Below are positions 262-35,968 of a DNA stretch of 64,000 nucleotides, piece by piece. A program made the translations under genes and the position numbers. This DNA is from Bacillota bacterium (GTDB lineage Bacteria > Bacillota > SHA-98 > UBA4971), in the NCBI GenBank assembly GCA_012842395.1, contig DUSX01000029.1, positions 64,109 through 128,108 of the forward strand, read 5' to 3'. Position 1 is the stretch's first letter. Each line of letters starts with the position of its first letter. The notes beneath the pieces were generated by a model, which worked only from the letters and a program-made list of their open reading frames with translations, was not told the DNA's origin and ran no database searches.

Positions 262-1359
262 TCAGGGTTTCCAGGCCGCCGTCCCGGCCCAGATCGCCGC
301 GCAGCTCGCGACAAGCGCGACCAGGGCCACGACCCGTGAGTATCCCGTGGTTTCGTACACTCGTCCCGTGCCGATTGGAGGGAGCGGCACGGGGTCGATG
401 GGGAGCCCGTTTTTCAGAGCGAGACCGCGGACGTCAAGTAGGTTGATCACGGGCACGCCTGCGGCCGCGAACTCGAAGATGAGCCCGCGGTCGGGGGCTT
501 GTGACATGACAGGGGGGTGCACGACGAGCCCGTTGGGGAAATCCAGCGATGTGAGGGTGTTCCCGTAGTTCGGCGTGGCCCCCCCTATGTTCACGAAGCA
601 CCTTATTGGCTCGCCCGCGGCCAGTTTCCTGTACACCTCGAGTCTTCGCCGAACGCTCCCGCTCACGGTATCTTCTCTGATCAGGGGCACGCCTGCGCGT
701 GCCGCTATCTCTTCCATCACGCGCTTCCCCTCGCCGAAAAGGGTGCCCTCGCCGGCGTCCTTGTCACCTCCCAGGGACACGGCTGCCAACTTGTACGGGA
801 TGAGTCCCTCTTCGTTCAGGCGCGCCAGCATGTCCACGAATGTCAAGTTAGGCAAGGTCGCGCCATACGTGGAAGCGCCTATCGAGTATATGGTTATGGG
901 CCGCAGGCCGAGGACGCGCGCAGCTGACAACGTGGCTAAGATGAGCGAAGGGAACGAACCGCTCGCCCCGACCGCGACGACGTCCCCGGGCTCGAGGCCG
1001 GCTTCTTTGAAGAACTTTACCATGAGAGCTGCGAAAGCCGGGTTAGTCGCAGTGCGCTTGGCCTCGAGGTTCCCGGCGGTCGTCGTGATCTCCGTGAACT
1101 CGCCTCCGATGAGCCCCGTCTCGTTCGGGTCGAGGTCGCGGTCGATGGGGATTCCCAGAGAAAGGCGGTATTCCCTTATGGCGGCAGTGCACCGCATCAT
1201 GAGGTTCGCAGCCTCAACCTGCGCGTCATGGTAAGGACGCGGCGCTGTCCCGTCGCGAACGGACGTGCGGGCGACCCAGACCCCGGCGGTCGCCAGAACG
1301 GCCGCGACTAACAGGAACACCACTGATACCCGGCCGCGTTTCATCCCCCAAGCAGGCAT
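262..1359 (-). CDS. pgsW: PgsW-type poly-gamma-glutamate system protein
   Basis: A 365-residue protein with an N-terminal membrane segment (about residues 11-30) and a second hydrophobic segment near the C terminus (about 343-362), consistent with an envelope protein whose bulk sits outside the membrane. The sequence resembles the 'poly-gamma-glutamate system protein' family that accompanies pgsB and pgsC outside Bacillus subtilis. The biochemical role of that family is not established. It starts 10 bp after pgsC and is the third gene of a pgsB-pgsC-pgsW unit. A second in-frame ATG five codons downstream (M6) is a possible alternative start. No separate pgsA or pgsE gene is visible, so PgsW may be the accessory export component. 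Confidence 0.8.
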   Translation of the reverse strand: MPAWGMKRGRVSVVFLLVAAVLATAGVWVARTSVRDGTAPRPYHDAQVEAANLMMRCTAAIREYRLSLGIPIDRDLDPNETGLIGGEFTEITTTAGNLEAKRTATNPAFAALMVKFFKEAGLEPGDVVAVGASGSFPSLILATLSAARVLGLRPITIYSIGASTYGATLPNLTFVDMLARLNEEGLIPYKLAAVSLGGDKDAGEGTLFGEGKRVMEEIAARAGVPLIREDTVSGSVRRRLEVYRKLAAGEPIRCFVNIGGATPNYGNTLTSLDFPNGLVVHPPVMSQAPDRGLIFEFAAAGVPVINLLDVRGLALKNGLPIDPVPLPPIGTGRVYETTGYSRVVALVALVASCAAIWAGTAAWKP

Positions 1360-1369
1360 GTCGGCGCGA

Positions 1370-1801
1370 TCACCTCACCAAAACCAGCGCGAGACGGACG
1401 ACTGCCGCCAGGAGAAGGACAGATGCGAATGTCCGGATAGCGCCCTGCTTGGATATATCGTTAGCGATGAGGCCGGGGATGATGTATCCAATGGCCCTGA
1501 CTTCCTGGCTCGCACCGGGGATCCATACGCCGAGCTTGACGGCCAACCAGCCCAGCCAGAACGCCGTCAGCACCATGGCCATGAATCTTCGGCGTCCGTA
1601 CAGGATGATAGCATGGGACAGCACCCAGACGACCGCGTAAGTGATGCCCGCCAGGAGCAGGGTTGCGCCCACTCGCGTGGGCTGATCCAGGTAGAGGGCG
1701 AGGTAACCCGGGACGACCAGTCCGCCGCCGTACAAGCCTGTGATCTCGGTGAACAGGAAGCTTGCGATAAGTCCGATTCCAATCGATAACGCGATGGTCA
1801 C
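1370..1801 (-). CDS. pgsC: PgsC/CapC membrane subunit of poly-gamma-glutamate synthase
   Basis: A 143-residue, very hydrophobic protein with about four or five membrane spans, close to the usual CapC/PgsC length of about 150. The N-terminal stretch with EITGLYGGGLVVPGYLAL is characteristic of the family. PgsC forms the membrane synthase with the ATP-dependent ligase PgsB and is thought to help move the growing polymer across the membrane. The GTG start overlaps the TGA of pgsB (GTGA), so the two are translationally coupled. pgsW follows 10 bp downstream. Confidence 0.9.
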   Translation of the reverse strand: MTIALSIGIGLIASFLFTEITGLYGGGLVVPGYLALYLDQPTRVGATLLLAGITYAVVWVLSHAIILYGRRRFMAMVLTAFWLGWLAVKLGVWIPGASQEVRAIGYIIPGLIANDISKQGAIRTFASVLLLAAVVRLALVLVR

Positions 1802-2991
1802 AGCGTCTCACCGTCTCGTTCGAAGAACTCAGCTAGTCGTTGCCCCATGCCCTTCGTGTTTCCTACCGCAAAGAGCACTGCGCCCCCCGGAACCTGGGAT
1901 TCGATCTTGTCCAGCACCGAGCGGGGCTCATCCAGGGATGAGACGTCCACCACCCGGCGCAGGTCCATTCCGCTCCTGGCGAGCTCGGCCTCGGCAATCC
2001 TCGCGGCCTCGCCTATCAGAAAGACGTACCGCGGTCGGACCTCGCACGCCACGAGCCTGGAGAGCTCGCGGATCCTTGGAATGCGGTCTGCGCGGTTGTT
2101 CATCACGACCGCGACGGGCATACCTTCGCCGACGTCGCGCAGGATGCTCCCTTCCACGATCATCCTCCATATGAGCATGGTGGACGTGTAATCGTTGGCG
2201 GCGAATGCGTTTACCAGAACATAGTCGCCGCTTCCTCGAGGGATTCTCAGCACTCTCATTGCACCAGGATCGCCCCGTGCGCTGAGCATGCCGGAAATGG
2301 CCACATCCCGCGCGACCCCCGCGAGCTCGCACACTTTGAGCGCGCACGCGACGTTCTCCTTGAAGCTCACGTATGAGAAGGCCGCGTTCACCTCATCGGG
2401 GACCTCGGATGCGTCCGCGACGTGTACCGAGGTTCCGAGCGCCCGCGCTCGCTCCATGAAGACATCCAGAAACGCGTTCTCGGCCGTCACGAGGCATCCT
2501 TCCCGAGGTATGGTAAGCGAAAGTGCCCGGGCCACATCGAGCAGCCGGGGGCCCATCACGTCCAAGTGGTCGTCTCGGACATTCGTGATCACTCCGATCG
2601 TGGACCGGATCATCCTATGCTCGGAGACCCACTGGTTTTCCGGTTCGAGGGCCATGCACTCCAGTACGAGGGCGTCCGCCCTGCGCTTTGCCGCGAGCGC
2701 CACCGTCTTCATCTGCTCGGCGATGTTTCCCCGTCCCCGACCACGTCTGCGCACAGGCAGCTCCGATCCGTCTTCCAAGATGAGTCTCGCTGCCGTGCCG
2801 GTGGTCTTGGCTACCACGCGGAGCCCCCCTGCGCGAAGCCCTGCGGCTATCAAGCGAGTTGTCGTGGATTTTCCCCGCGTCCCGTTCACATGAACCCTGA
2901 TGGGGATCACAAGCACTCGCCTGGTGTGGCTCCAGTACTCCACGAAACCCGCGAGCGCTACGCCTGCGCACAAGAATGCAAGAAAAGCCAC
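1798..2991 (-). CDS. pgsB: PgsB/CapB poly-gamma-glutamate synthase, Mur-ligase-like ATPase
   Basis: A Mur-ligase-like amide ligase that adds glutamate to poly-gamma-glutamate using ATP. One N-terminal membrane span is followed by the P-loop VNGTRGKSTTTR, then TTGTAAR, ECMALEPENQ, DHLDVMGP and a C-terminal NNRADR and VFLIGE region, all typical of PgsB. The frame is open further upstream to an ATG at 3132. I prefer the GTG at 2991, because it yields 397 residues with the membrane anchor at the very N terminus, as in the B. subtilis enzyme (about 393). The longer start would add 47 polar residues of unknown purpose. First gene of the pgsB-pgsC-pgsW unit. Confidence 0.88.
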   Translation of the reverse strand: MAFLAFLCAGVALAGFVEYWSHTRRVLVIPIRVHVNGTRGKSTTTRLIAAGLRAGGLRVVAKTTGTAARLILEDGSELPVRRRGRGRGNIAEQMKTVALAAKRRADALVLECMALEPENQWVSEHRMIRSTIGVITNVRDDHLDVMGPRLLDVARALSLTIPREGCLVTAENAFLDVFMERARALGTSVHVADASEVPDEVNAAFSYVSFKENVACALKVCELAGVARDVAISGMLSARGDPGAMRVLRIPRGSGDYVLVNAFAANDYTSTMLIWRMIVEGSILRDVGEGMPVAVVMNNRADRIPRIRELSRLVACEVRPRYVFLIGEAARIAEAELARSGMDLRRVVDVSSLDEPRSVLDKIESQVPGGAVLFAVGNTKGMGQRLAEFFERDGETL

Positions 2992-3449
2992 TCTGACCTC
3001 GCGCTCCTTCCACAAAAACCATTTCGCCTCAGTACAGGCCGTTTCCTGCTGACTCAAGATGTCGATCCAGCAGCGCTTGGGAAGCCGTTCGGTTCCATTC
3101 GGTTCCGTGATGGCTTCACGTTCCTTGCACATCTCCTTTCTACCTTTACTGGTTTTTTATCTCGCATTTAGCAGGAGTCGGGCATAGCTTGGAGAATCTA
3201 AAAACCTATACCCTGGGCTAGTTGCCCATCGATAGGTGGGTTCAGCTGCCGATTTCGTCGGGAAACCACCCGTTGGGAGGTGATATCAGGCCTAGCAACG
3301 TCGCTTGCGCTGTCGTCGCACGACGCACGCAAGGGTGTCTAACGCATCAAGCTCAAGTTACGCTCGCCGTTCAAAAGCGGCGGACGCCAAAGAGGGACGG
3401 GAACAGCTGACGCATTGTTCAACACGGCGTAACGGAGGAGGACTGCAAG
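2992..3449. other. Divergent intergenic region between pgsB and the C69 genes
   Basis: About 460 bp separate the preferred pgsB start from the first C69 peptidase gene. No convincing gene is seen, apart from the possible 47-codon upstream extension of pgsB to 3132. The plus-strand half has several short hairpins (see the entry at 3211-3275) and a strong ribosome binding site, GGAGGAGGA, at 3432-3440. Promoters for both directions should lie here, but I could not place them confidently. Confidence 0.5.
3211..3275 (+). promoter_or_regulatory. Possible structured leader RNA upstream of the C69 gene
   Basis: Two adjacent foldable elements are visible. GGGC (3215-3218) can pair with GCCC (3224-3227). 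GGTGGG (3235-3240) can pair with CCACCC (3266-3271), enclosing a small hairpin CCGA/TCGG (3249-3261). The arrangement resembles a compact riboswitch or leader, but it does not match the conserved cores I know for SAM, TPP, cobalamin, glycine, c-di-GMP-I, ZTP or T-box elements. It could be chance pairing in GC-rich DNA. Confidence 0.25.
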
Positions 3450-5123
3450 ATGGTGAAGAAGAAAGGTTGGATATGGCGCAAGGCCTGCATCGTCCCGATC
3501 GTCATGATCCTCACGACGGCGGTATTCTCTCTCGCCGCATTTGCATGCACGTCGATATTGGTGACCCCTGGGGCCTCGGTGGACGGGTCGGCCTCGGTCA
3601 CACATACGTGTGACAGCGGCTCGAGCCCGTTCCAGATCTGGAAAGTGCCCGCCAAAGACTGGGAGCCTGGTTCCATGGTCGACGTGCTCAACCTGCCCCA
3701 ATACAGCAACGGGTATCAACTTCATGAGGTGGCAATGAATCCGACCGGGAACAAGATTCCGCAGGTGCCTCACACCTACGGTTATATCATGGCCCTTTTC
3801 GGCGTGATCAACGAGAAGCAGGTTGGGATAGGGGAGACAACAATAGGCGGGCGTCGCGAATTCCGCAACCCCAACGGGTTCTTTGACATAACTAATTTGT
3901 CGGTTCTCGCGATGGAGCGCGCGTCGAGCGCTCGCGAGGCCGTGCAGATCATGGGCGATCTCGCAGTCAAATACGGGTACAAGGACAACGGCGAGGAGCT
4001 GTCGATCTCTGACCCCAAGGAGTGCTGGGTGTTCGAGATCGTAGGCCCCGGTCCCCTGTGGGAACAGGGAAGCGAGGAGCCAGGCGCATTCTGGGTGGCG
4101 CAGCGGGTGCCGGACGGCCACGTTGCCGTGTCGGCGAACTCCGCCATCATCGGCAATATCGATTTCGACGATCATGAGAACTTCATGTACGGCCCGGGCA
4201 TCAGGGAGTTCGCGGCAGAGAAGGGTTGGTGGGACCCGGCCAGCGGCAAGCCGCTCAACTGGCGCTGGGACTTCAACGGCGCGGTCAGGACCGACTACAG
4301 CTACAGGCGTGTATGCGAGGTCTTCCGAAGGGTCGCGCCCTCGCTCGCCTCAAAGCTCAGCGAGGCGGATCCGCCATTTTCGGTGCCCGCGGAGAGGAAG
4401 CTTTCTATCCAGGACATCTGCGCGCTGCAGCGCGATCACTACGAGGACACTCAGTTTGACATGAGGACCAGCATCACCGCGGGCCCGTGGGGCAACCCGC
4501 GCAGGTATCAGCCTCAGACCTGGAAGGTCGGCGACCAGACGTACGCGTGGAACAGAATGATCTCGTCCGTTCAATGCGAGTACACGATCACCACACAATC
4601 CCGCGGCTGGCTGCCGGACGAGATCGGTGCTCTGGTGTGGTACGGCGCCGCGAACCCGGACGCAACGTGCTACGTGCCGCTTTATGCCTCGATGACCGAG
4701 ATCAACCCGATAATGAACACCGAGGCCGGCTCGCAGCAGCAGTTCACCCGCAAGTCCTACTGGTGGGCCATTTCCGCAGTGAGCACGTATGCGGACCTGA
4801 AATACTCCTACATGATTAAGGACATCAATGCTTGGCAGGAGAAGTACGAGGGCGCTGCGTTCAAGTCTCAGGCGGCCATAGAAGCCGCGGCGCTCAACCT
4901 CTACAAACAGGACCCGAAGCTCGCTGTCGAGTTCCTGACGAGGTACTGCAACAGAAACGTGGAAGTCGTGCGGGACGCATGGTGGGAGCTGCTCGATTAC
5001 CTCATCTGGAAGTATAACGCCGGCTTCATGATTGAAGACGGCAAGGTGAAGACGATAGGTTATCCCGAGTCGTGGCTCCAGAGAGTCATCCAGCTTGACG
5101 AGCCGGACCATTACAAGAAGTGA
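3450..5123 (+). CDS. Secreted C69-family dipeptidase (first of a tandem pair)
   Basis: A 557-residue protein of peptidase family C69, the N-terminal-nucleophile hydrolases that include lactic acid bacterial dipeptidase A. A positively charged start and hydrophobic segment (residues 10-32) form a signal peptide. Cys33 in AFACTSIL would become the N-terminal nucleophile after cleavage. The family signature continues as TPGASVDGS and later KYGYKDNGE. The ATG is preceded by GGAGGAGGA at ideal distance. C69 enzymes usually act on dipeptides in the cytosol, so the clear signal peptide suggests hydrolysis of peptides, or peptide-like polymer fragments, outside the cell. The adjacent pgs genes make glutamyl peptides a plausible substrate, but this is inference. 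Confidence 0.85.
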   Translation: MVKKKGWIWRKACIVPIVMILTTAVFSLAAFACTSILVTPGASVDGSASVTHTCDSGSSPFQIWKVPAKDWEPGSMVDVLNLPQYSNGYQLHEVAMNPTGNKIPQVPHTYGYIMALFGVINEKQVGIGETTIGGRREFRNPNGFFDITNLSVLAMERASSAREAVQIMGDLAVKYGYKDNGEELSISDPKECWVFEIVGPGPLWEQGSEEPGAFWVAQRVPDGHVAVSANSAIIGNIDFDDHENFMYGPGIREFAAEKGWWDPASGKPLNWRWDFNGAVRTDYSYRRVCEVFRRVAPSLASKLSEADPPFSVPAERKLSIQDICALQRDHYEDTQFDMRTSITAGPWGNPRRYQPQTWKVGDQTYAWNRMISSVQCEYTITTQSRGWLPDEIGALVWYGAANPDATCYVPLYASMTEINPIMNTEAGSQQQFTRKSYWWAISAVSTYADLKYSYMIKDINAWQEKYEGAAFKSQAAIEAAALNLYKQDPKLAVEFLTRYCNRNVEVVRDAWWELLDYLIWKYNAGFMIEDGKVKTIGYPESWLQRVIQLDEPDHYKK

Positions 5124-5251
5124 GCGATGGCCCGTCGCCCGGGCCGCTCGCAGGGATGTAGAACACACGGAGAGAGGGTGTGCCGCGGGCAAGTCAAGGG
5201 CCCGCGCGTCACGAACGTATGACCCTTCCAGTGGGTTGGAGGTGGCATAAC

Positions 5252-6919
5252 ATGGCGAAATCCGGCTGGTTCGCGCGCTCGAGAATGTGGGTGACATCCT
5301 CGGTTGTTGCCGTTGCCATCTGTCTGTTTTCTGTCGGCGCGCTTGCATGCACCACGATACTGGTTACGCCAGGGGCGTCTGTGGACGGTTCCGCTTCGGT
5401 AACCCAGACCGCGGACTGCGGCATGTGCACATTCGAGATCGAGAAGGTTCCGGCGAAGGACTGGCCTGAGGGCGCGACGGTCGAGGTGCCGTTCCTCCCG
5501 CAGTTCACGGGCGGGTACCAGATACACGACGCGATGAAATCCACGGGTGTTTTCATACCTCAGGTGAAACACACGTACGGCTACATCAAAGGCATCTTCG
5601 GGATGATCAATGAAAAGCAGGTCGGCATCAGCGAGACCACGACCAGCAACCGGCCTGAGTCCAAGAACAGCAACGGCATCTTGGACATCACGAACCTCTC
5701 GATGTTCGCGATGGAGCGGGCAGCTACCGCACGGGAGGCCATCCGCGTCATGGGTGACCTTGCGGTGAAGTACGGCTACAAGGACAACGGTGAAGCCCTT
5801 GCCGTGTCGGATCCTCACGAGGTGTGGTTGTTCGAGATCTCCGGCCCCGGCCCGCTCTGGGAGCCTGGGTGCGGTGACCCCGGCGCCTACTGGGTAGCGG
5901 AGAGGGTCCCGGATGGTCACATAGCGTCGTGCTGCAACAACGCGGTCATCGACGTCATCGATTGGGACGACTCCGAGAACTTCATGTACGGCCCGGGCAT
6001 AAAGGAGTTCGCTATCGAGAAGGGCTGGTACGATCCGTCGAGCGGGGAGCCGTTCAGCTGGAGGAAGCACTTCTGCAACGCTACTCGCTATGCCACGTGC
6101 GCGAGGCGCGTCTGGCGCATCTTCTGCCTGGCAGCCCCGTCTCTCGCGAGCACCCTCAACGAGGAGAATCTGCCTTTCTCCGTTCCTGTGGACAAGAAGC
6201 TCTCCATAGCCGACATCGCCGCGATCAACCGCGACCATTATGAGGGTACGCCCTACGATGCCACAAAGGGCATCATGGCCGGGCCGTGGGGCGATCCTCG
6301 CAGGAAGGGCACGATCCCGCCCATCGACGGGGAACGGTACGCGTTCCAGCGTATGATCGCGATACCCGGGTGCGAGTACAGCATAATAACGCAGTCACGG
6401 GCATACCTCCCCGATGAGATCGGTGGAGTGCTCTGGTACGCCCCGGCGGACCCGGACGCCAGCACGTACGTGCCGTTCTATAACAGCGTCACCAAGATCT
6501 CCAGCTCTCTGAACACCGAGGCCGGGGACCACCACACGCTCACCCGCACTTCGTATTGGTGGGCGGTATCAACGGTGAGCACGTACGCGGACCTTAAGTA
6601 CTCGTATATCAGCAAGGACATCCAGGCGGTTCGCGATCAATACGAGGGGTTCGCGCTCAAGACCCAGGCGGCCATAGACGCTGCCGCCCTTCAGCTGTAT
6701 CAGCAAGATCCCGCTCTTGCAGTGGAGTTCCTGACCGACTACTGCAACCGGAACGTCGAGGCCGCGCGCGACGCCTATTGGGCGCTCCTCGACAAGCTCA
6801 TGTGCAAGTACAATGCGCTCACGATCACGGAAAACGGCAAGATCACCACTCCGACCCTTCCTGAAGAGTGGGTGAGGATGATGATCAAGTTCGATACGGG
6901 CGACTGGTACAAGCAGTAG
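5252..6919 (+). CDS. Secreted C69-family dipeptidase (second of a tandem pair)
   Basis: A 555-residue paralogue of the preceding gene, similar along its whole length and differing mainly in surface segments. Residues 13-32 form a signal peptide, and Cys33 in ALACTTIL is the predicted N-terminal nucleophile, at the same position as in the neighbour. I chose the ATG at 5252 because GGAGGTG lies seven bases upstream and because it gives the same N-terminal layout as the paralogue. An upstream GTG at 5180 in the same frame has no comparable site. The gene follows the first copy by 128 bp and is itself followed by a hairpin with a T run. A local duplication is the obvious origin. Confidence 0.85.
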   Translation: MAKSGWFARSRMWVTSSVVAVAICLFSVGALACTTILVTPGASVDGSASVTQTADCGMCTFEIEKVPAKDWPEGATVEVPFLPQFTGGYQIHDAMKSTGVFIPQVKHTYGYIKGIFGMINEKQVGISETTTSNRPESKNSNGILDITNLSMFAMERAATAREAIRVMGDLAVKYGYKDNGEALAVSDPHEVWLFEISGPGPLWEPGCGDPGAYWVAERVPDGHIASCCNNAVIDVIDWDDSENFMYGPGIKEFAIEKGWYDPSSGEPFSWRKHFCNATRYATCARRVWRIFCLAAPSLASTLNEENLPFSVPVDKKLSIADIAAINRDHYEGTPYDATKGIMAGPWGDPRRKGTIPPIDGERYAFQRMIAIPGCEYSIITQSRAYLPDEIGGVLWYAPADPDASTYVPFYNSVTKISSSLNTEAGDHHTLTRTSYWWAVSTVSTYADLKYSYISKDIQAVRDQYEGFALKTQAAIDAAALQLYQQDPALAVEFLTDYCNRNVEAARDAYWALLDKLMCKYNALTITENGKITTPTLPEEWVRMMIKFDTGDWYKQ

Positions 6920-6951
6920 CCCGGGTCGAGCCCGTGTGGTTGGGCATGAGC

Positions 6952-7001
6952 GGGCCCCGGTTTGGCAGTGACTTCACGCAGGAGCGGGCCGGGGCCCTTT
7001 T
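6952..7001 (+). terminator. Terminator-like hairpin after the C69 pair
   Basis: GGGCCCCGG (6952-6960) is perfectly complementary to CCGGGGCCC (6989-6997), and TTTT follows at 6998-7001. The loop is long at 28 bases, so it may be a weaker terminator or an attenuator between the C69 genes and the following secreted protein gene. Confidence 0.6.
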
Positions 7002-7102
7002 CCTCTTGGCAACGGGCGTCTCGCCGTCCTGGGGAGGCGCGACGCGCATCCCGTAGCGCCTACGTTCGACGAGGAAGCACGCGACAAGGGGAGGGAGATG
7101 GG

Positions 7103-7951
7103 GTGAATTCCCGGAATCTCGTTTCCGCGACGGTGGCAGTGGTGGTTGCATTGGGCCTGTGCCTCCTTGATTCGCCTGTCGCTGCACCCGTAGCAACAGC
7201 GGCAGCGGCCGCGGAACCCATCGTGAATATCCAGGTGAGCGACGGCGAGGAGCTGGGCCCCGTGAGGGCGATGATGGATGAGCTTGTGAGACGTGGGTTG
7301 AGGGCCACATTATGGGTGAGCCGGTCGGACCTCACGCCCGAGTGGCAGGCGTATCTGAAGGAGATCGCCGGGAAGGGCTATGAAGTCGGCGTGAAGGTCG
7401 ATGCGGACATCTCGAAGCTCTCATACGAGGAACAGCTGAGCCTCGCCCAGCCCATCGCCGGCGCGGTCACCGCCTGCACTGGAAAACGTCCGAAGGGGTT
7501 CAGGGCAACGAGTTTTACGTGGAACGACGCGAGCGTGGACGTAGCCGATGAGCTCGGATTCATGTACTTCATGGCGAGCGTGGGCTCGGCGCCCGGCGAG
7601 TTCGATAGCATCCTCTATTTCCCGCCCAAACACGGCTTCGGCGTATTCGGTGTTACCAGGGCGCTCTATCCCGATGGCGCGAGTGGCATTCTCTGCGACG
7701 TGCCCGCGTCGAAGAGGATGAATTCCAAGGAGTACTTAGGCCTTCTGTGCAGGGTTCTCGATGACTGCATTGCCACGGGCAAGGCTCTAGTGATCGAATG
7801 GCATCCTGCCTCAGTCACGAAGCCCGACCCCGGGAACCCTTGGTGGCAGGCGTTCATCGGTTTCCTGGACTACCTCGAAAGCAGGCGTGGGGATGTGTGG
7901 TGCGCCACGGGCGAGGACCTCGTGGTGTTCGGAACGGCGTGCGACTGCTAG
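7103..7951 (+). CDS. Secreted NodB-like (polysaccharide deacetylase fold) protein, probably non-catalytic
   Basis: A 282-residue protein with a signal peptide or anchor in the first 35 residues. The rest follows a polysaccharide deacetylase layout: a first strand at VNIQVSDGEE, an RATLWVSRSDL segment, KGYEVGVKVD, a central KRPKGFRATSF motif and a C-terminal EWHPASV segment. The residues that normally bind metal do not fit. The TFDDG motif is replaced by QVSDGEE, and the H-x(3)-H pair expected after GHEIG is absent (GYEVGVKVDAD). I infer a binding or degenerate enzyme rather than an active deacetylase. The GTG start follows a GGGAGATGGG site. An upstream open extension has no convincing start. 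Confidence 0.6.
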   Translation: MNSRNLVSATVAVVVALGLCLLDSPVAAPVATAAAAAEPIVNIQVSDGEELGPVRAMMDELVRRGLRATLWVSRSDLTPEWQAYLKEIAGKGYEVGVKVDADISKLSYEEQLSLAQPIAGAVTACTGKRPKGFRATSFTWNDASVDVADELGFMYFMASVGSAPGEFDSILYFPPKHGFGVFGVTRALYPDGASGILCDVPASKRMNSKEYLGLLCRVLDDCIATGKALVIEWHPASVTKPDPGNPWWQAFIGFLDYLESRRGDVWCATGEDLVVFGTACDC

Positions 7952-8008
7952 CCTGCCCTACTGGGGCGAATTGTGCTTACCCGAATCTAAGGAGGCTGTG
8001 ATTCTGAA

Positions 8009-8692
8009 ATGACACGGTGTATTCTGTCCGAACATGGTGCTAAGGTGCTAGTGTTTGCGGTCTTGGTAACGCTAGTTGCCGGTAGCGTGGGGGCATGCCT
8101 CGCTCAGGAGATTCCATCCGCCAAGCTGCCTCTCTTAATCGTCTCGGCCGGACAGAGCACGGGCATCTACGTGGCCAACGCGCTTGCGGACAAGATCAAG
8201 CTGCCGTACGACTGGGCTGACGTCCCTACCGAGAAGGAGATCGCCGCCGGGGTTGGCCTCGGGGGCATGAAACCCGGACCCGGTGTGCACGTTGAATCCC
8301 ACCAGCAAGGCAAGTATGCGAGCGGCGCCCCTTACAAGACCGTCATCCTCGTGATGGGCGCGAGCCTGAAGGGAATGGGCGCCTCGGGACTTGACGTCGC
8401 CGGAGAGGTCGCACGGCTTAAGAAGATAATCAACTACTGCAAGAGCAAGGGCATCCTCCTCATCGGAATGCACGTGGAAGGAAAGTCCGGGCGGGGCCGG
8501 AAAGGCAGCGAGCAAGAAGAGATCATAGACGCGGTGGCTCCATACGTCGATTACCTCATGGTCATGAGCGCCAGCAACTTCGATGACAGGTTCACGAACA
8601 TAGCAAAGGAGAACGGCATACCGCTCTCGGTCGCCAAGAACACGACAGAGATGGCAGACCTTATGGCGCAGGTGTTCGGGATCAAGAAATAA
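8009..8692 (+). CDS. Secreted DUF6305-type protein
   Basis: A 227-residue protein with a signal peptide (cleavage probably near residue 34, after CLAQ). The mature part has an alpha/beta pattern with the motifs LIVSAGQSTGIYV, VILVMGASLKGMGASG, LLIGMHVEGKSGRG and VDYLMVMSASN. These match my recollection of the uncharacterised DUF6305 family, which has no known activity. The glycine-rich turns after hydrophobic strands suggest a ligand-binding Rossmann-like fold. It sits 85 bp before a multi-span permease and may be that transporter's extracytoplasmic partner, an inference from position only. Confidence 0.65.
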   Translation: MTRCILSEHGAKVLVFAVLVTLVAGSVGACLAQEIPSAKLPLLIVSAGQSTGIYVANALADKIKLPYDWADVPTEKEIAAGVGLGGMKPGPGVHVESHQQGKYASGAPYKTVILVMGASLKGMGASGLDVAGEVARLKKIINYCKSKGILLIGMHVEGKSGRGRKGSEQEEIIDAVAPYVDYLMVMSASNFDDRFTNIAKENGIPLSVAKNTTEMADLMAQVFGIKK

Positions 8693-8777
8693 GCCCCGAC
8701 GCTGGCCAGACGCTTGATGCTTCGTTCGTCTGTGCCTTTGCCTCTTCGCGCGAGGACCGCAAGAAAGGAGAATCGGG

Positions 8778-10064
8778 ATGCTCGCAAAGGTCGTCATTGT
8801 GCTTCTCGTAATGGTCGCGACGTACGTCATTGCCAAAGCCGCCGCCAAGCTCTCGGTGGAGCTGAGCATCTTCCTTGCCGCGGTTGCGGGCGCGTTCGCG
8901 GGCGGCATATGGTTTCCTGCCCGCCACATAGCCGAGGGGTCCATAACATATCTGGACCTCTGCCTTATCTTTTTCACAGCGACCGTTTTCATGAACATAA
9001 TGAAGGAAGCAGGGGCGGTGGACTACGCGGTCAGGGCGATAGTCAGAAGGTTCCGGAACAACCGTCCGCTGGCGCTCGTGCTGATCATGTTCATCATGCT
9101 CATCCCAGGGGCTCTCACCGGGGCCGGGAGCGTGTCCGTGCTTGTGGTAGGAGGGACCGTTGCGTCCGCGCTCAGTTTCATGGGCATCTCGCCGGAACGC
9201 GTTGCAGCCATAGTGTTCTTCCTGGCCGGCTTGTCTGCGGTTGCGCCTCCCGTGAACGTGTGGGCTATGATGACCTGCGCTGGCACGGCCATTCCGTATG
9301 TAGGGTTTGAGGTTCCGCTTGGCCTCTCTGTGCTTGTCCTCGGCGTGTTTACCGTGTTCACTCTCGGGCTCAGACGATCCGAAACGTCGTCGGAATCCAC
9401 CGTGACCGAGCTCCCAGAAGTCCCGAAGGGAATGACGCCTGCCAGGGTCATAATCCCGTTCGTGGTCCTGTTCGGGCTTATTGCGGCTTCCAGAATATGG
9501 CCACATTCAATGCCTATCCTGGGACTCCCCTTGATCTTCAGCATCTCGGCTGTGGTGGCGCTCCTCGTGAGCCCGAAGAGAATCAACGTGGTCGAGCTTT
9601 CCAGGAGCACGATGCACCAGCTCCTGCCGCTCCTCGCCACGTGCACTGTTGTGGGCACGCTGATCCAGATAATGACAGCAACAGGGGTGAGGGGGCTTCT
9701 CTCCCTGGCGGTCATCTGCATGCCGATGGTGCTCATCTATTGCTTGCTACCCATAATAATCCCCGTTTCCGAAGGAATCCTCACGTTCGGCGGCGCTGCG
9801 GTCCTCGGGATCCCGCTCATCTGGACGTTTAACGCCATCGGTATGGACCCCGTGATCGCTCTCTCGGGGCTGTCGCTCCTTTGGTTCCTCGGCGACGCCC
9901 TTCCGCCGACGGCCATCATCGCGAGGTTGGTGTTCCAGACGGTCGGGTATAAGGGCTCATACGCGACGTTCATGAAGACGTCCTGGCTTCCCTGGGTCGC
10001 GACGGCGGCCGTGGGGACCCTGATGGTTGTCTTCAGCAAAGCTCTGGGCTTTCTTGCCCTATGA
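8778..10064 (+). CDS. Ion-transporter superfamily permease (TRAP large-subunit/DctM-like)
   Basis: A 428-residue polytopic membrane protein with roughly 11-12 hydrophobic segments. The layout of two repeated halves, each with a re-entrant region (around PGALTGAGSVSVLVVGG and LWFLGDALPPTA), resembles the DctM/TRAP large permease and related ion-transporter families that move carboxylates. No TRAP small subunit or DctP-type binding protein is adjacent. Instead a DUF6305 protein precedes it and a 50-residue membrane protein follows. A carboxylate or acyl-amino-acid substrate would fit the neighbouring M14 deacylase, but the sequence alone does not show it. The ATG follows AAGGAG. Confidence 0.65.
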   Translation: MLAKVVIVLLVMVATYVIAKAAAKLSVELSIFLAAVAGAFAGGIWFPARHIAEGSITYLDLCLIFFTATVFMNIMKEAGAVDYAVRAIVRRFRNNRPLALVLIMFIMLIPGALTGAGSVSVLVVGGTVASALSFMGISPERVAAIVFFLAGLSAVAPPVNVWAMMTCAGTAIPYVGFEVPLGLSVLVLGVFTVFTLGLRRSETSSESTVTELPEVPKGMTPARVIIPFVVLFGLIAASRIWPHSMPILGLPLIFSISAVVALLVSPKRINVVELSRSTMHQLLPLLATCTVVGTLIQIMTATGVRGLLSLAVICMPMVLIYCLLPIIIPVSEGILTFGGAAVLGIPLIWTFNAIGMDPVIALSGLSLLWFLGDALPPTAIIARLVFQTVGYKGSYATFMKTSWLPWVATAAVGTLMVVFSKALGFLAL

Positions 10065-10119
10065 CTGGCGGGGGGACTTCCAGGATACTGACGGCGCTAG
10101 ATTTTGGAGGTGACACCGG

Positions 10120-10272
10120 GTGTCGGTCATAACTCTCTTGTACTACGCTCTTGTCGGCTACATGCTTATCCTCGTGATCTGGAATTTCATGAAAACCAAG
10201 AACCTAGAGGAAGCCGCCCTCTACGCTATCGTGGCGCTTCCGTTGGTCCTCCGGATACTTCGCATCAAGTAA
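10120..10272 (+). CDS. Small membrane protein of 50 residues
   Basis: A GTG at 10120 lies six bases after a perfect GGAGGTGA site (10106-10113) and opens a 50-codon frame ending TAA. The product has one strong membrane span (YYALVGYMLILVIW) and a second amphipathic or hydrophobic segment near the C terminus, with a short charged linker between. It begins 55 bp after the permease gene and ends 24 bp before the M14 gene, so it is almost certainly part of the operon. It may be a small accessory subunit of the permease, in the place a TRAP small subunit would take, though it is much shorter. Confidence 0.7.
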   Translation: MSVITLLYYALVGYMLILVIWNFMKTKNLEEAALYAIVALPLVLRILRIK

Positions 10273-10296
10273 CGCAGACCGCGAGGAGGGAATCCG

Positions 10297-11454
10297 ATGT
10301 CCAGGCACTTCATAGGGAAGCTCATCATCGTCGCCCTTGCTCTCATCGTGCTCGTGGGCGGTGGGTCCGAGCTTTACGCTCACAGGCACTTCAAGGAAAC
10401 CATCGTGAAAGGCCCGGGTGTGACCAGGGTTGCCAAGCTCAGCGACTACTTCGCGCCGCTCAAGGGGACCATTAACGACACCAACGTATTCATCCTGGAG
10501 GGCTCAAAGCCGGGAGGCACCGTGCTAGTGCTTGGAGGGAGTCACCCGAACGAGTCTTCAGGCATAGTGGCCGCCGTCCTGCTCGTGGAAAACGCTAAGG
10601 TGGATGCGGGCAAGCTAATAGTGATCCCTCATATTAATCGTAGCGGGTCCACGGGGACTCAGCCTTCGTCCGGCTACCCGCTGTATTTCCACATCAAGAC
10701 TGATTGGGGGGAACGGACGTTCCAGATGGGCGACCGCGTCACCAACCCGCTGGACCAGTGGCCTGATCCCGACGTCTACGTGCACTACCCCAGCGGCCAG
10801 CTACTCTCCTACGTTGAGATAAGGAACGTGAACCGGACTTGGCCGGGGAGGGCGAACGGCACGCTTACTGAGAAGACGTCGTACGCGGCGATGCGTCTCA
10901 TCGAGCAGGAGAAAGTGGACATAGTGATAGACCTGCACGAAGCGGAACTCCTCTACCCCGTGACCAACTGCATAGTCGCTCCCACAAAGGACATCACCAT
11001 CGCGACCATGGCATGCATCAACATCAGCTCCGAGTTTTTTGACATCCACACGGAGCCGTCTCCGCAGAACTATCATGGGTTGACCCACAGAGAGATCGCG
11101 GATCACTCCTCCGCGTATCCGTTCCTGCTTGAGGCGTCAGGGCCGTTCCTTGACCAGCCTACGGGCCCGAAGACTGAAAGTTTGATAATCGACGGCAAAG
11201 ACGATTTTCTCTTGATAGCGGGAAAGCGGGGGCTGCTCTTCACGGACTACGACGAATCCGGCAAGCCAATGAAGATGCGCGTCGGGCGCCACCTCACAAC
11301 CGTACAGGCGCTTTGCTCCGAGTGGTCTAGCGAGAATCCGGATAGGGAGATCGTCATCGAGTCACCTGGATACGAGGACCTCATGGAGAATGATGTGGGC
11401 CACTATCTGCTCAACCCGGCGGCGGTGGACCCCGATAGCGTCATACTTGAGTGA
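10297..11454 (+). CDS. Membrane-anchored M14 succinylglutamate desuccinylase/aspartoacylase-like hydrolase
   Basis: A 385-residue zinc hydrolase of the M14 AstE/AspA type, which removes acyl groups from the amino acids aspartate or glutamate. Residues 7-24 form an N-terminal membrane anchor. The zinc ligands appear as H83 and E86 in GGSHPNESSG and H214 in VIDLHEAE. A glutamate in FLLEASGP (near residue 279) is a good catalytic candidate. It ends the operon that begins with the DUF6305 gene. The anchor implies an extracytoplasmic active site, unusual for AstE and AspA enzymes. Together with the secreted C69 peptidases and pgs genes it suggests processing of glutamyl compounds at the cell surface. 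Confidence 0.75.
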   Translation: MSRHFIGKLIIVALALIVLVGGGSELYAHRHFKETIVKGPGVTRVAKLSDYFAPLKGTINDTNVFILEGSKPGGTVLVLGGSHPNESSGIVAAVLLVENAKVDAGKLIVIPHINRSGSTGTQPSSGYPLYFHIKTDWGERTFQMGDRVTNPLDQWPDPDVYVHYPSGQLLSYVEIRNVNRTWPGRANGTLTEKTSYAAMRLIEQEKVDIVIDLHEAELLYPVTNCIVAPTKDITIATMACINISSEFFDIHTEPSPQNYHGLTHREIADHSSAYPFLLEASGPFLDQPTGPKTESLIIDGKDDFLLIAGKRGLLFTDYDESGKPMKMRVGRHLTTVQALCSEWSSENPDREIVIESPGYEDLMENDVGHYLLNPAAVDPDSVILE

Positions 11455-32001: not shown

Positions 32002-33624
32002 GTGCTCGGGACGCTATGGCGACTTCTCTTCCGACGGATAGCGGGGGTGCGCGGTTCCGGAGGAACCGAGCCGCGGCGCGCTGAGGTGTTGGTATCTGCC
32101 GACCTGTCTGTCAACCGGGAGAGGATCGAGTCCGCGTTCGGCAACAGCCCGGATCTGGTCACGAGAGAGCTGCGGGCCGGTGCCCGGGGAAGGATCTCCG
32201 TCCTCGTCACACACATAGATGGCCTCGTGGACAAGAGACTGATCGCTGAGGCGGTTGTGGAGCGGATCACCGGTCTCCAGCTTGAATGGACCGATCCTGC
32301 ACAGGCATACGAGGACCTCAAGACCCGCCTTCTCGCCTCGAGCGACGTTGAAGAAGTCGAGACCCTGGGGGAGTTCATCAGCGGCATAGCCCGCGGGGAC
32401 GGCGGCGTGCTGGTTGATGGAGTTGCAAAGGGCCTCGTCTGCGCCCTGCGCGGCTGGGAGCAGAGAAGCGTAGAAGAGCCGACCACCGAATCCACCGTGA
32501 GGGGATCCAAAGAGGGGTTCGTTGAGGCGTTGCGCACGAACACGAGCCTCCTGCGGCGGAGGATCGTGAGCCCTCAACTCTGGATAGAAGAGGTAACGAT
32601 AGGGCGCATCACTAGGACGAGGGTTGCCATCGCCTACATTGCAGGAGTGGTCAACGAGGACATCGTGGAGGAGGTGAGAGCCCGACTCAAGAGGATCGAT
32701 GTCGATGCAATTCACGAGAGCGGCAACATAGAGGAACTCATCGAGGATGCACCGTTCTCTCCTTTCCCGACGATAGCGCGTACCGAGCGACCGGACAGGG
32801 TTGCAGGGGCGCTGATCGACGGGAGGGTCGCGATCCTCACCGATGGCACCCCGTTTGTTCTCATCGTCCCGGCCACGTTCACGATGTTTCTTACATCAAG
32901 CGAGGACTACTACGAGCGGTATTTTGCCGGATCAGCCATAAGGCTCCTAAGGATAGCTGCGTTCTTTATCTCGCTCACCTTGCCGGCGTTCTACGTTGCT
33001 CTAACCACGTACCACCAGGAGATGCTGCCCACTCCCCTCGTGTTGAGCATCGCGGCTCAGCGAGAGGGGATACCATTTCCCGCCGTGGTAGAAGCGCTGC
33101 TAATGGAATTCGTCTTTGAGACACTGCGCGAGGCCGGGATCCGCCTGCCTAGGGTGGTTGGGCAAGCTGTCAGCATCATAGGAGCCCTTGTCGTCGGTGA
33201 CGCGGCCATACGGGCGGGTTTGGCCTCGCCAGCCATGGTCATGGTGGTGGCGTTCACTGGGATCGCATCGTTCGCGACTCCGGTTTTCAGTTTGGCTATC
33301 TCTGTACGCCTTCTCCGTTTCGTGATGACAGCCTTGGGCGGTGCCCTCGGGTTCTTCGGGGTGGCCATGGGGATGTTCGCTCTCCTGACTCACCTGACTT
33401 GCTTGCGCTCATTCGGAGTGCCGTACCTCGAGCCACTTGCTCCCTTGGTGCTTTCGGACCTCAAGGATGCCTTGGTGCGAGTTCCTTGGTGGGCGATGAG
33501 CCGCCGGCCCGAGTTCACCGGCAAGAAGGCTCCGATAAGGCAGGCGCCTGGCCTTAAGCCCAGGCCGCCTTCTCCTGAAAGGGAGGAGGTTCAACGTCTC
33601 CTAGACACGGAGGACGTGAGATGA
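32002..33624 (+). CDS. gerAA: GerAA-type spore germination receptor subunit
   Basis: A 540-residue A subunit of a GerA-family nutrient receptor in the inner spore membrane. The first 280 residues are a soluble region (SVNRERIESAFGNSPDLVTREL, LVDKRLIAEAVVERI, GRVAILTDGTPFVLIVPATF). The rest has about five or six membrane spans, including the PAFYVALTTYHQEMLPTPL and GQAVSIIGALVVGDAA family motifs. The GTG at 32002 is used although its ribosome binding site is poor. The stop overlaps the start of the B subunit gene (ATGA). Operon order AA-AB-AC is standard. Confidence 0.92.
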   Translation: MLGTLWRLLFRRIAGVRGSGGTEPRRAEVLVSADLSVNRERIESAFGNSPDLVTRELRAGARGRISVLVTHIDGLVDKRLIAEAVVERITGLQLEWTDPAQAYEDLKTRLLASSDVEEVETLGEFISGIARGDGGVLVDGVAKGLVCALRGWEQRSVEEPTTESTVRGSKEGFVEALRTNTSLLRRRIVSPQLWIEEVTIGRITRTRVAIAYIAGVVNEDIVEEVRARLKRIDVDAIHESGNIEELIEDAPFSPFPTIARTERPDRVAGALIDGRVAILTDGTPFVLIVPATFTMFLTSSEDYYERYFAGSAIRLLRIAAFFISLTLPAFYVALTTYHQEMLPTPLVLSIAAQREGIPFPAVVEALLMEFVFETLREAGIRLPRVVGQAVSIIGALVVGDAAIRAGLASPAMVMVVAFTGIASFATPVFSLAISVRLLRFVMTALGGALGFFGVAMGMFALLTHLTCLRSFGVPYLEPLAPLVLSDLKDALVRVPWWAMSRRPEFTGKKAPIRQAPGLKPRPPSPEREEVQRLLDTEDVR

Positions 33625-34736
33625 GAGAGGTCGAAGGCGGCAAGATATCAGGTAGACAGCTTGCGGCGGTTCTCGTGCTGATCCGGGCGGCGGCGATAAG
33701 CATGACGTTTCCGACCGCAGCGGCGGTCAAGCCGCCGCAGGACATCTGGGTCACGACTCTGCTCGGGACGCTCGTGTCAGTGATCTTCGTGCTGCTCGTG
33801 GCGCGCCTCGGGCTTAGGGCCCCTGACAAGACCATCATCGAACAGGCCGAGCTCTTGCTTGGCAGGTGCCTGGGGAAGCTCGCCGGGATGATCCTGGTTT
33901 GGTACTGGATGCTCGTCGCCTCTTGCTCCGCAAGAGAGCTCGGAGAATCATACACAACTGCCATCATGCCGGAGACGCCCGTGCTCGTCTTCATGGTCGC
34001 GACGGTGTTTCTAGCGGCCAACGCCGCCCGGAACGGCCTCGAGGTCGTGGGACGAATGGGTGAAAGCATCCTCTGGGTCGTTCTCTTCTTTGCGGCACTT
34101 GTGTTGGTCCTCCCATACGACCAGATGCGTTTCAAGAACCTCGCGCCAGTTCTGGCGCGCGGATTCCGCCCACTTATGCTCCCGACGGGGACTGTCGTTT
34201 CCTTCTTTCTTGAGTTCATTATCCTAGGCATGATCATTCCCTGCCTTGCCCGGCCACGGGATGCTGCGCGCTATTCTGTCCACGCTGTCCTCGTCAGCGG
34301 CGCGCTCATGACGTGGCTTGCAGTTGCCTTGGTTGCTGTCTTCGGGCCCGCGCTTCCAGACCTAGCAATGCCGGCATTCAGCTTGAGCAGGATGATAAGC
34401 ATTGCCAACTTCTTTGAAAGGATCGAGGCGCTCATAATGGCAGCGTGGACGCTGACCTCCGCGATCAAAGTCGCCCTGTTCCTCTGGGGATGCGCTGTTG
34501 GACTCGCTCAAGTATTCGGCATCTCGCGGTATCAGTCGTTCGTATACCCGCTTGGTGCCATGACTGTCGCGCTCGGCATGCTGTCCTTCGAGAGTGACCC
34601 CGCCCTGCGGCGTTTCCTCCGGTTCGAGGTTTTCGGGGTTTATTCCCTCATCACGACGGTCGGCACAATGGCCGTTCTCTACCTCGCCGCGTTCCTTCGG
34701 ACCAAGCCGCCGCTTGGACGCGGCCTGGAAAGGTGA
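33621..34736 (+). CDS. gerAB: GerAB-type germination permease subunit
   Basis: A 371-residue B subunit of the APC superfamily with ten membrane spans. It is thought to hold the germinant binding site. It starts with a polar segment and GRQLAAVLVLIRAAAISMTFPTAAA, and has the later SARELGESYTTAIMPETP and PYDQMRFKNLAPVLARGF segments of the spore permease family. The ATG overlaps the gerAA stop. Together with GerAA and GerAC it forms one receptor, and the germinant (probably an amino acid or sugar) is not predictable. Confidence 0.9.
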   Translation: MREVEGGKISGRQLAAVLVLIRAAAISMTFPTAAAVKPPQDIWVTTLLGTLVSVIFVLLVARLGLRAPDKTIIEQAELLLGRCLGKLAGMILVWYWMLVASCSARELGESYTTAIMPETPVLVFMVATVFLAANAARNGLEVVGRMGESILWVVLFFAALVLVLPYDQMRFKNLAPVLARGFRPLMLPTGTVVSFFLEFIILGMIIPCLARPRDAARYSVHAVLVSGALMTWLAVALVAVFGPALPDLAMPAFSLSRMISIANFFERIEALIMAAWTLTSAIKVALFLWGCAVGLAQVFGISRYQSFVYPLGAMTVALGMLSFESDPALRRFLRFEVFGVYSLITTVGTMAVLYLAAFLRTKPPLGRGLER

Positions 34737-34741
34737 TCCCG

Positions 34742-35968
34742 GTGTCGTGGATCGGATTGCGGAGAGCTGCAGCTGGACTCCTTCTCACGGCGGCGTTGAT
34801 GACCACGGCGGGGTGCTGGAATCGACGGGAGATAGAGACTATAGGGTTCGTCCTCGCGGCCGGGATCGATGAAGCGCCGCAGCAGGGCAAGATCCAGGTC
34901 ACGGTTCAGATAGCGAAGCCCTTTGCCATAGGAGGCGGCGAAGCGGTTCGCGGGGCTGCCGACGAGAAACCTTTCTGGACTGTGAGCAGCACGGGATACA
35001 CCGTGTTCGAAGCAGTACGCAACCTCCTCTCCCAGTCTCCCCGGCGGCCGTTTTGGGCGCACAACCGGTTCATCTTGATTGGTGAAGGGTTGGCGCGGAA
35101 GGGTATCAGGGACGCTCTGGACTTGTTTTGCCGTGACGGAGAGTCACGTCGTCGGATATGGATGATTGTGGCCAAGGGGGCAAAGGCATCAGACCTTCTA
35201 CAGGTGGAGTTCGAGCTCGAGCAGATGCCGTCAGAGGGCGGCATGGGGCTGGTACAGGGGGCCCGGCAAGGATTGTCGACGATCGGTGAAGGCATGCTGA
35301 ATGATTTCTTGCAAAGACTCGAAGGGGAAGGGATAGACCCCATAGCCACCCGCGCGGAGATCGTCCCGAGGCCGCAGGAGTTTGACATTCGCGGGGAATT
35401 GAAAAGGGAGACGATAGGCGGGTCGGCCAGGCTCACCGGAGCCGCGGTCTTCAAGGACGACCGGCTGGTCGGCTGGCTCAATAAGCCAGAGACCAGGGGG
35501 TTCAATTGGGTCATGGGCAAGGTGCGCAGCGGGATCATCGTCATCGAGAACCCTCGCGAGGAGGGGAAGTTCGTAGGGCTCGAGATCCTCGGTGCAAGGG
35601 GCGGTTTCAAACCTGAGGTCAGGAGCGGGAAGGTCACCGTCACGGTGAAGATTGAGGCCGATGCCAATGTCGGCGATGTCCAAGGTTTCATCGATCTGCT
35701 CGGAATGCCTGAGGCATGGTCCAGTATGGAGCGGAGGATGGCCACGGTGATCAAGAACGAAGTGCTGGCTGCTGTGGCCAGAGCACAAGAGCTTGGCTCG
35801 GACATTTTTGGATTCGGCGCCGAACTGAACCGGAGGTACCCGAAGAAATGGGCTGACGAGTTCAGGGACCGATGGGATGAAGAGTTTCGCAAGATCGATG
35901 TAAAGGTCGAAGTCAAGGCGAAGCTGAGAAGGACGGGCCTCACCGTGAAGAGCTCAGAGATCAGGTGA
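34742..35968 (+). CDS. gerAC: GerAC-type germination lipoprotein (Ger(x)C family)
   Basis: A 408-residue C subunit. The signal sequence ends in a lipobox LMTTAGC with C25 as the lipidation site, followed by WNRREIETIGFVLAAGID, the hallmark of Ger(x)C proteins. The rest shows three alternating domains as usual. I prefer the GTG at 34742, spaced well from AAGGTGAT. A GTG at 34733 overlaps the gerAB stop and is the alternative. It is followed by repeat copy B and then a small membrane protein gene that may belong to the same operon. Confidence 0.9.
   Translation: MSWIGLRRAAAGLLLTAALMTTAGCWNRREIETIGFVLAAGIDEAPQQGKIQVTVQIAKPFAIGGGEAVRGAADEKPFWTVSSTGYTVFEAVRNLLSQSPRRPFWAHNRFILIGEGLARKGIRDALDLFCRDGESRRRIWMIVAKGAKASDLLQVEFELEQMPSEGGMGLVQGARQGLSTIGEGMLNDFLQRLEGEGIDPIATRAEIVPRPQEFDIRGELKRETIGGSARLTGAAVFKDDRLVGWLNKPETRGFNWVMGKVRSGIIVIENPREEGKFVGLEILGARGGFKPEVRSGKVTVTVKIEADANVGDVQGFIDLLGMPEAWSSMERRMATVIKNEVLAAVARAQELGSDIFGFGAELNRRYPKKWADEFRDRWDEEFRKIDVKVEVKAKLRRTGLTVKSSEIR

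Follow-up and report, generated by a model that had tools for sequence, protein, structure and literature searches.

The closest described relatives of the system reported here are the poly-gamma-glutamate operon of Bacillus (PgsBCAE/CapBCAE), the enzymes degrading its product, and transporters of the TRAP type. Gamma-glutamyltransferase (GGT) contributes to poly-gamma-glutamate degradation in B. subtilis (PMC5751247), a zinc-carboxypeptidase fold is common to phage poly-gamma-glutamate hydrolases (PMC6506827), and a 2026 report describes a Cloacimonadota CapBCA operon (CapB, CapC and CapA, also PgsF) in uncultured anaerobes together with a DAPI-stained polymer in an enrichment (PMC13082233). 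Here we analysed 64,000 nucleotides (the window; contig positions 64109-128108) of the 3.1 Mb genome of a Bacillota bacterium. At its start the genes of PgsB, PgsC and PgsW (PgsBCW) face a run of genes that includes what we call the cassette: a permease, a 50-residue membrane protein (tm50), an M14 zinc amidohydrolase and a DUF6305 protein. Our data show that the grouping of cassette and PgsBCW is not a matter of chance.

PgsW, PgsC and PgsB open the window on the minus strand, and the seven plus-strand genes opposite are separated by gaps of less than 100 bases between open reading frames (ORFs):

262..1359, minus strand: PgsW, poly-gamma-glutamate system protein (TIGR04332, 341 bits against a subfamily cut-off of 100)
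1370..1801, minus strand: PgsC, membrane subunit of poly-gamma-glutamate synthase (TIGR04011, 123.6 bits against an equivalog cut-off of 96.45)
1798..3132, minus strand: PgsB, Mur-ligase-like ATP-dependent glutamate ligase (TIGR04012, 389.6 bits against an equivalog cut-off of 222.7)
3133..3449, no strand: divergent intergenic gap of 317 bases, separating pgsB from the cassette run
3450..5123, plus strand: C69a, C69 (Ntn) peptidase, predicted to be secreted (Peptidase_C69, E=9e-58)
5180..6919, plus strand: C69b, second C69 peptidase predicted to be secreted, probable ATG start near 5252 (Peptidase_C69, E=1e-59)
6962..7951, plus strand: polysaccharide-deacetylase-like, putatively secreted protein, probable start near 7103 (Polysacc_deac_1, borderline at 23.4 against 23.1 bits)
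8009..8692, plus strand: DUF6305 alpha/beta protein, predicted to be secreted or lipid-anchored (PF19823, E=1e-36)
8778..10064, plus strand: divergent TRAP DctM-like permease (no Pfam match; profile comparison)
10120..10272, plus strand: tm50, conserved 50-residue membrane protein with two hydrophobic segments and a C-terminal LRxLxIK motif
10297..11454, plus strand: M14 zinc amidohydrolase of the AstE/AspA subgroup, predicted to be membrane-anchored (AstE_AspA_cat, PF24827)

The original prediction, made from the letters alone, had proposed an envelope system built of a poly-gamma-glutamate synthase, two C69 peptidases, a DUF6305 protein, a permease, a 50-residue membrane protein and an M14 deacylase. 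All these genes are present, with curated family matches (TIGR04011, TIGR04012, Peptidase_C69 twice, PF19823 and PF24827); its list was incomplete, since PgsW (262-1359) was left out of the title and the deacetylase-like gene (6962-7951) was missed.

The association was assessed by counting the true permease at E<1e-90 and PgsB and PgsW over their family cut-offs. The permease is found in 14 of 249 genomes surveyed from the window's phylum, and each of the 14 also has PgsB and PgsW (Fisher P = 5e-22 for permease and PgsW). This test takes genomes as independent, which they are not, but the 14 span nine families. PgsW occurs without the permease in one genome of the 249 (G218), and four more have PgsB without PgsW. 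In G218 the run M14-M14'-PgsBCW-histidine kinase (HK)-response regulator (RR), where M14' is a second M14-type protein of other loci, lies at the extreme edge of a contig and is cut there at M14, so the permease probably falls in an assembly gap; a GGT gene lies at the end of another contig. Within the window's genus, sister species without the permease are also without PgsW over the cut-off. The second phylum, of Acidobacteriota type and including an Aminicenantes chromosome, gave 7 genomes with PgsW, 8 with the permease and 7 with both out of 149 (Fisher P = 3e-11, again with genomes taken as independent), the eighth permease gene being truncated on a contig fragment. In cassette genomes outside the first survey PgsW is present in 45 of 50. 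The independent occurrence of the families that the original prediction had asked about is thus not seen (PgsW in 14/14, 7/8 and 45/50 genomes). The association is also physical: by their coordinates, 13 of these 14 genomes have PgsB or PgsW no more than 7.1 kb from a permease, and the fourteenth (G078) has PgsB at a contig start.

A permease profile scan of genome contigs confirmed 511 relatives. Around the best 80 loci, many of them on short contigs, we counted M14 in 74, tm50 in 73, DUF6305 in 68, C69 in 53 and PgsB, PgsC or PgsW in 11-12. Records with the cassette are labelled Bacillota, Aminicenantes/Acidobacteriota, Thermotogae, Spirochaetes, Atribacteria, KSB1, Gemmatimonadota, Deferribacteres and Bacteroidetes, mostly as metagenome assemblies whose individual phylum labels may be wrong. 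Locus L039 is a single co-directional run, GGT-DUF6305-permease-tm50-M14-M14'-PgsB-PgsC-PgsW-HK-RR, and L162 is co-directional from the permease through PgsBCW to HK-RR. Secreted GGT (equivalog matches) recurs in many cassettes, including that of the complete Aminicenantes chromosome (L177) and a second cassette of the window's own genome (L044, G000:C1:71500-91400; M14-DUF6305-M14-GGT-permease-tm50-HK-RR), a sister locus that the original prediction had missed. In L047 (5350-7924) and L053 a D-glutamate cyclase-like gene (PF14336) lies just upstream of GGT-DUF6305-permease, and L047 also has a GntG-type PLP aldolase. Co-occurrence, adjacency, the L039 and L162 runs and the recurrent secreted GGT strongly support the earlier suggestion that these genes work together on a glutamate polymer in bacteria other than Bacillus.

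We propose a turnover system in which poly-gamma-glutamate, or a near gamma-glutamyl polymer, is made, hydrolysed at the surface and re-imported, and we give this reading about an even chance of being right. Family membership supports PgsB and PgsC as the polymerase. PgsW, as an anchored extracytoplasmic protein, would stand in for CapA/PgsA. Judging by conserved catalytic residues and N-terminal sequences, M14 with its anchor and the Ntn hydrolases secreted from the cell (C69 in the window, GGT in the sister cassette) could work outside the membrane, where they would cleave the polymer or gamma-glutamyl conjugates derived from it. The permease would re-import the products with tm50 in place of DctQ and with DUF6305 as an extracytoplasmic ligand-binding partner; DUF6305 might partner either the permease or the histidine kinase. 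The data show gene content, its conservation and coupling, and the relations of families and folds; the substrate, the direction of transport and these partner roles are what we infer.

The synthase part appears regular. The pgsB and pgsC genes are adjacent with a 4-base overlap. PgsB shares 36% and PgsC 44% identity with its counterpart in a classical PgsBCA(E) operon from another genome of the phylum, and PgsB retains the P-loop NGTRGKSTTTRL. PgsW has a hydrophobic segment at each end by hydropathy, and its middle domain is probably extracytoplasmic. Its structure model (pLDDT 83) found no fold match in the PDB, and a relationship to DUF6305 was rejected (hhalign probability 0.5%). We also noticed a genome without PgsW or cassette in which a classical PgsB-PgsC-CapA set is followed by GGT (L165, G014:C7:214000-223000).

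By hydropathy, C69a, C69b, DUF6305 and M14 each begin with a single hydrophobic segment; on this basis alone it supports their being secreted or anchored, in agreement with the signal peptides or anchors foreseen for the C69 and M14 enzymes. In both C69 proteins predicted signal-peptide cleavage falls right before the conserved Cys (AFA|CTS in C69a, ALA|CTT in C69b), so that the nucleophile abuts the predicted signal peptide, whereas in other lineages a short spacer lies between them. They have the Ntn fold and Cys nucleophile of the family, C69a matches a C69 dipeptidase in the PDB (5iau), and both score under the NCBIfam dipeptidase equivalog cut-off. In M14 the residues H83, E86, H214, E279 and R180 are invariant across 103 homologues, and the protein has the HxxE...H zinc ligands, substrate-carboxylate Arg and catalytic Glu of the AstE/AspA subgroup. 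The deacetylase-like protein has no NodB metal-binding residues by eye and is probably catalytically dead; no homologue of its gene was found in other cassette loci. In L068, L070, L072 and L073 a conserved secreted protein of ∼310 residues adjoins the DUF6305/C69 cassette, its L070 copy being without a Pfam match.

The permease matches nothing in Pfam and NCBIfam. The sole match of its profile in the PDB is TRAP DctMQ (9pym), over the full length (E=0.017), and hhalign against a DctM profile with checked references gave a probability of 97.8% (E=6.5e-13), which supports its assignment as a distant relative of TRAP DctM and a predicted secondary transporter. At almost every locus tm50 lies next to the permease and M14, and it has no match in Pfam, NCBIfam or PHROGs; its identification with PgsE was rejected on position and topology. 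The permease tree separates a GGT clade of 13 rows (12 with GGT nearby) from a C69 clade of 90 rows, and PgsBCW adjacency is scattered over both. This split suggests that permease specificity is paired with hydrolase type and that PgsBCW serves both clades.

DUF6305 is found in 34 of the 249 genomes. Its structure model is confident (pLDDT 95, alpha/beta), with no PDB match at E<=1e-3. Conserved are the motifs GQ, ExxR and SxKG, with no conserved serine nucleophile; an SGNH hydrolase was rejected, as the GQS motif has a variable Ser and fold hits are weak (TM-score ∼0.4), and profile hits in the PDB to spike fragments and dihydropteroate synthase were taken as chance. Two kinds of neighbourhood occur. 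In one, DUF6305-permease-tm50-M14 is accompanied by C69 or GGT genes and often by PgsBCW; in the other, DUF6305 lies with HK and RR, usually near an oligopeptide-type ABC transporter. The same HK/RR clusters adjoin it in both, and in L036 and L038 a DUF6305-M14 fusion is located between PgsW and HK/RR. Since other loci pair DUF6305 with HK and RR, we suggest that it reports a ligand to the transporter or to the sensor. The TRAP relationship of the permease and the two-component link of DUF6305 had escaped the original prediction. Thirteen loci of the second kind (L034, L037, L041, L054-L058, L060-L064), with a membrane HK and DUF6305 without the permease, look like a separate sensing unit.

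Several observations weigh against the turnover system. No TRAP P or Q component was found beside the permease: a family scan of the window genes gave no DctP-type solute-binding protein, and no DctQ-type subunit with four membrane segments adjoins the permease, only the two-segment tm50. DUF6305 itself, with its one small alpha/beta domain, does not resemble the binding proteins of TRAP systems. CapA/PgsA (PF09587) has no match anywhere in this genome, and PgsA is essential in B. subtilis, which makes polymer synthesis without it less certain; most other cassette genomes have CapA/PgsA elsewhere, and none was seen adjoining PgsBCW there. M14 is closest to N-acyl amino-acid deacylases. Substrates may also vary, as some cassettes adjoin oxalate oxidoreductase genes. 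L043 (6130-9266) and L052 carry three GGT-family ORFs with oxalate oxidoreductase alpha, beta and delta (NCBIfam equivalogs), next to a GntR-type regulator and an AAA ATPase, which points to a substrate related to oxalate in this subtype. Finally, genomes hold up to seven permease copies against one PgsW, beyond the needs of plain recycling.

The last two points would be expected if the cassettes imported varied environmental amides, peptides and gamma-glutamyl conjugates, the PgsBCW polymer being an ordinary surface polymer and the link reflecting a shared anaerobic, amino-acid-fermenting life. Many cassette copies per genome, two permease clades matched to different Ntn hydrolases (GGT-type and C69-type) and a diversity of catabolic genes nearby, among them oxalate oxidoreductase and the GntG-type aldolase, all fit. 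We nevertheless think it rather unlikely: the permease essentially never occurs without PgsBCW in two phyla, the genes adjoin in 13 of 14 genomes and run co-directionally in L039 and L162, and both are jointly absent inside the window's own genus.

An extracellular gamma-glutamyl cycle would use the polymer as donor: secreted Ntn enzymes would transfer gamma-glutamyl groups onto amino acids or acids outside the cell, and the conjugates would be imported by the permease and deacylated by M14. A single PgsW alongside as many as seven cassettes with differing hydrolases is not explained by simple recycling and keeps this donor role alive; GGT works as a transferase, M14 falls among the N-acyl deacylases and PgsBCW adjacency extends across both permease clades. 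The proposal is purely inferential, however; no C69 enzyme is known to act as a gamma-glutamyl transferase, and from its anchor M14 probably has its catalytic domain outside, where deacylation would precede import. We therefore hold it for distinctly improbable.

Recycling of cell-wall peptides, with M14 resembling the murein tripeptide amidase MpaA and acting on gamma-D-Glu-diaminopimelate bonds, C69 trimming and the permease importing muropeptides, seems very unlikely to us. Gamma-D-glutamyl bonds are present in peptidoglycan, M14' has a weak MpaA match and two loci have the D-glutamate cyclase-like neighbour; yet MpaA is not the top match, AspA and DoeB scoring better, the loci show no other recurrent gene for murein recycling, and the link to PgsBCW and GGT is left unexplained. 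An ordinary PgsBCA-type capsule operon with unrelated neighbours, already disfavoured, is scarcely credible in spite of typical PgsB and PgsC, given a genome without CapA/PgsA, neighbours conserved across phyla and the co-occurrence.

Apart from turnover, a bolder scheme of nutrient capture may be considered, although we judge it unlikely. An exported, self-made gamma-glutamyl polymer would be obligatorily coupled to substrate-specific uptake cassettes with a new transporter type (TRAP-M-like permease, tm50 and DUF6305), each with a secreted Ntn enzyme that makes or releases importable gamma-glutamyl conjugates.

Some features of the window complete the picture. The small gaps suggest that the seven plus-strand genes may form a single operon, and the divergent orientation means that Pgs genes and cassette do not share a transcript in this genome. 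A promoter scan of the cluster gave no excess over shuffles, with no sigma-70-like match above background in 3133..3449. Two tRNA genes lie downstream of the plus-strand run. Left of the window, ∼5 kb past PgsW, are gamma and alpha genes of a pyruvate-type 2-oxoacid:ferredoxin oxidoreductase (L032:7529-9680). Window positions 32002-35968 resemble by eye a gerA/gerB/gerC spore germination operon, and the organism may form spores.

The results provide a functional context for DUF6305, for PgsW, which has no known role, and for an unnamed TRAP-like permease family in mostly uncultured bacteria. They suggest that these lineages keep poly-gamma-glutamate in dynamic turnover and recycle it, beyond using it as a capsule, and that CapA/PgsA is replaceable. 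With genes so nearly perfectly coupled, a few purified proteins would allow the substrate to be tested directly. As the original prediction had it, the combination seems new: the open-access literature searched on DUF6305, PgsW, Aminicenantes polyglutamate and TRAP with gamma-glutamyl gave no relevant description, an absence that is not proof. The enzyme classes are all known ones; what appears undescribed is their coupling into one system, together with the permease family and the unmatched folds of DUF6305 and PgsW.

Compared with PgsBCAE/CapBCAE of Bacillus, PgsB and PgsC agree at equivalog level and in gene order, and PgsW takes the operon place of CapA/PgsA. In L158, the locus used for comparison, PgsE has one hydrophobic segment and a charged tail, whereas tm50 has two segments and follows the permease. 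The degradation enzymes PgdS, CwlO and Ggt of B. subtilis (PMC5751247) and PghP and PghL of phages (PMC6506827) find their likeness in GGT and a zinc enzyme of the M14 fold, both encoded next to a polymer synthase; no NlpC/P60-type counterpart of PgdS was seen in the cassettes, which add C69, DUF6305 and a dedicated permease. Cloacimonadota CapBCA likewise represents poly-gamma-glutamate genes in uncultured anaerobes, with no DUF6305/permease/M14 cassette described (PMC13082233). The permease aligns over its full length to DctM of the TRAP systems (DctPQM, SiaPQM; DctMQ 9pym), but tm50 and DUF6305 stand where DctQ and DctP are expected. Finally, the cassette M14 shares its catalytic residues with the deacylases AstE, AspA and DoeB and differs from them in its predicted anchor and its conserved linkage to permease and tm50.

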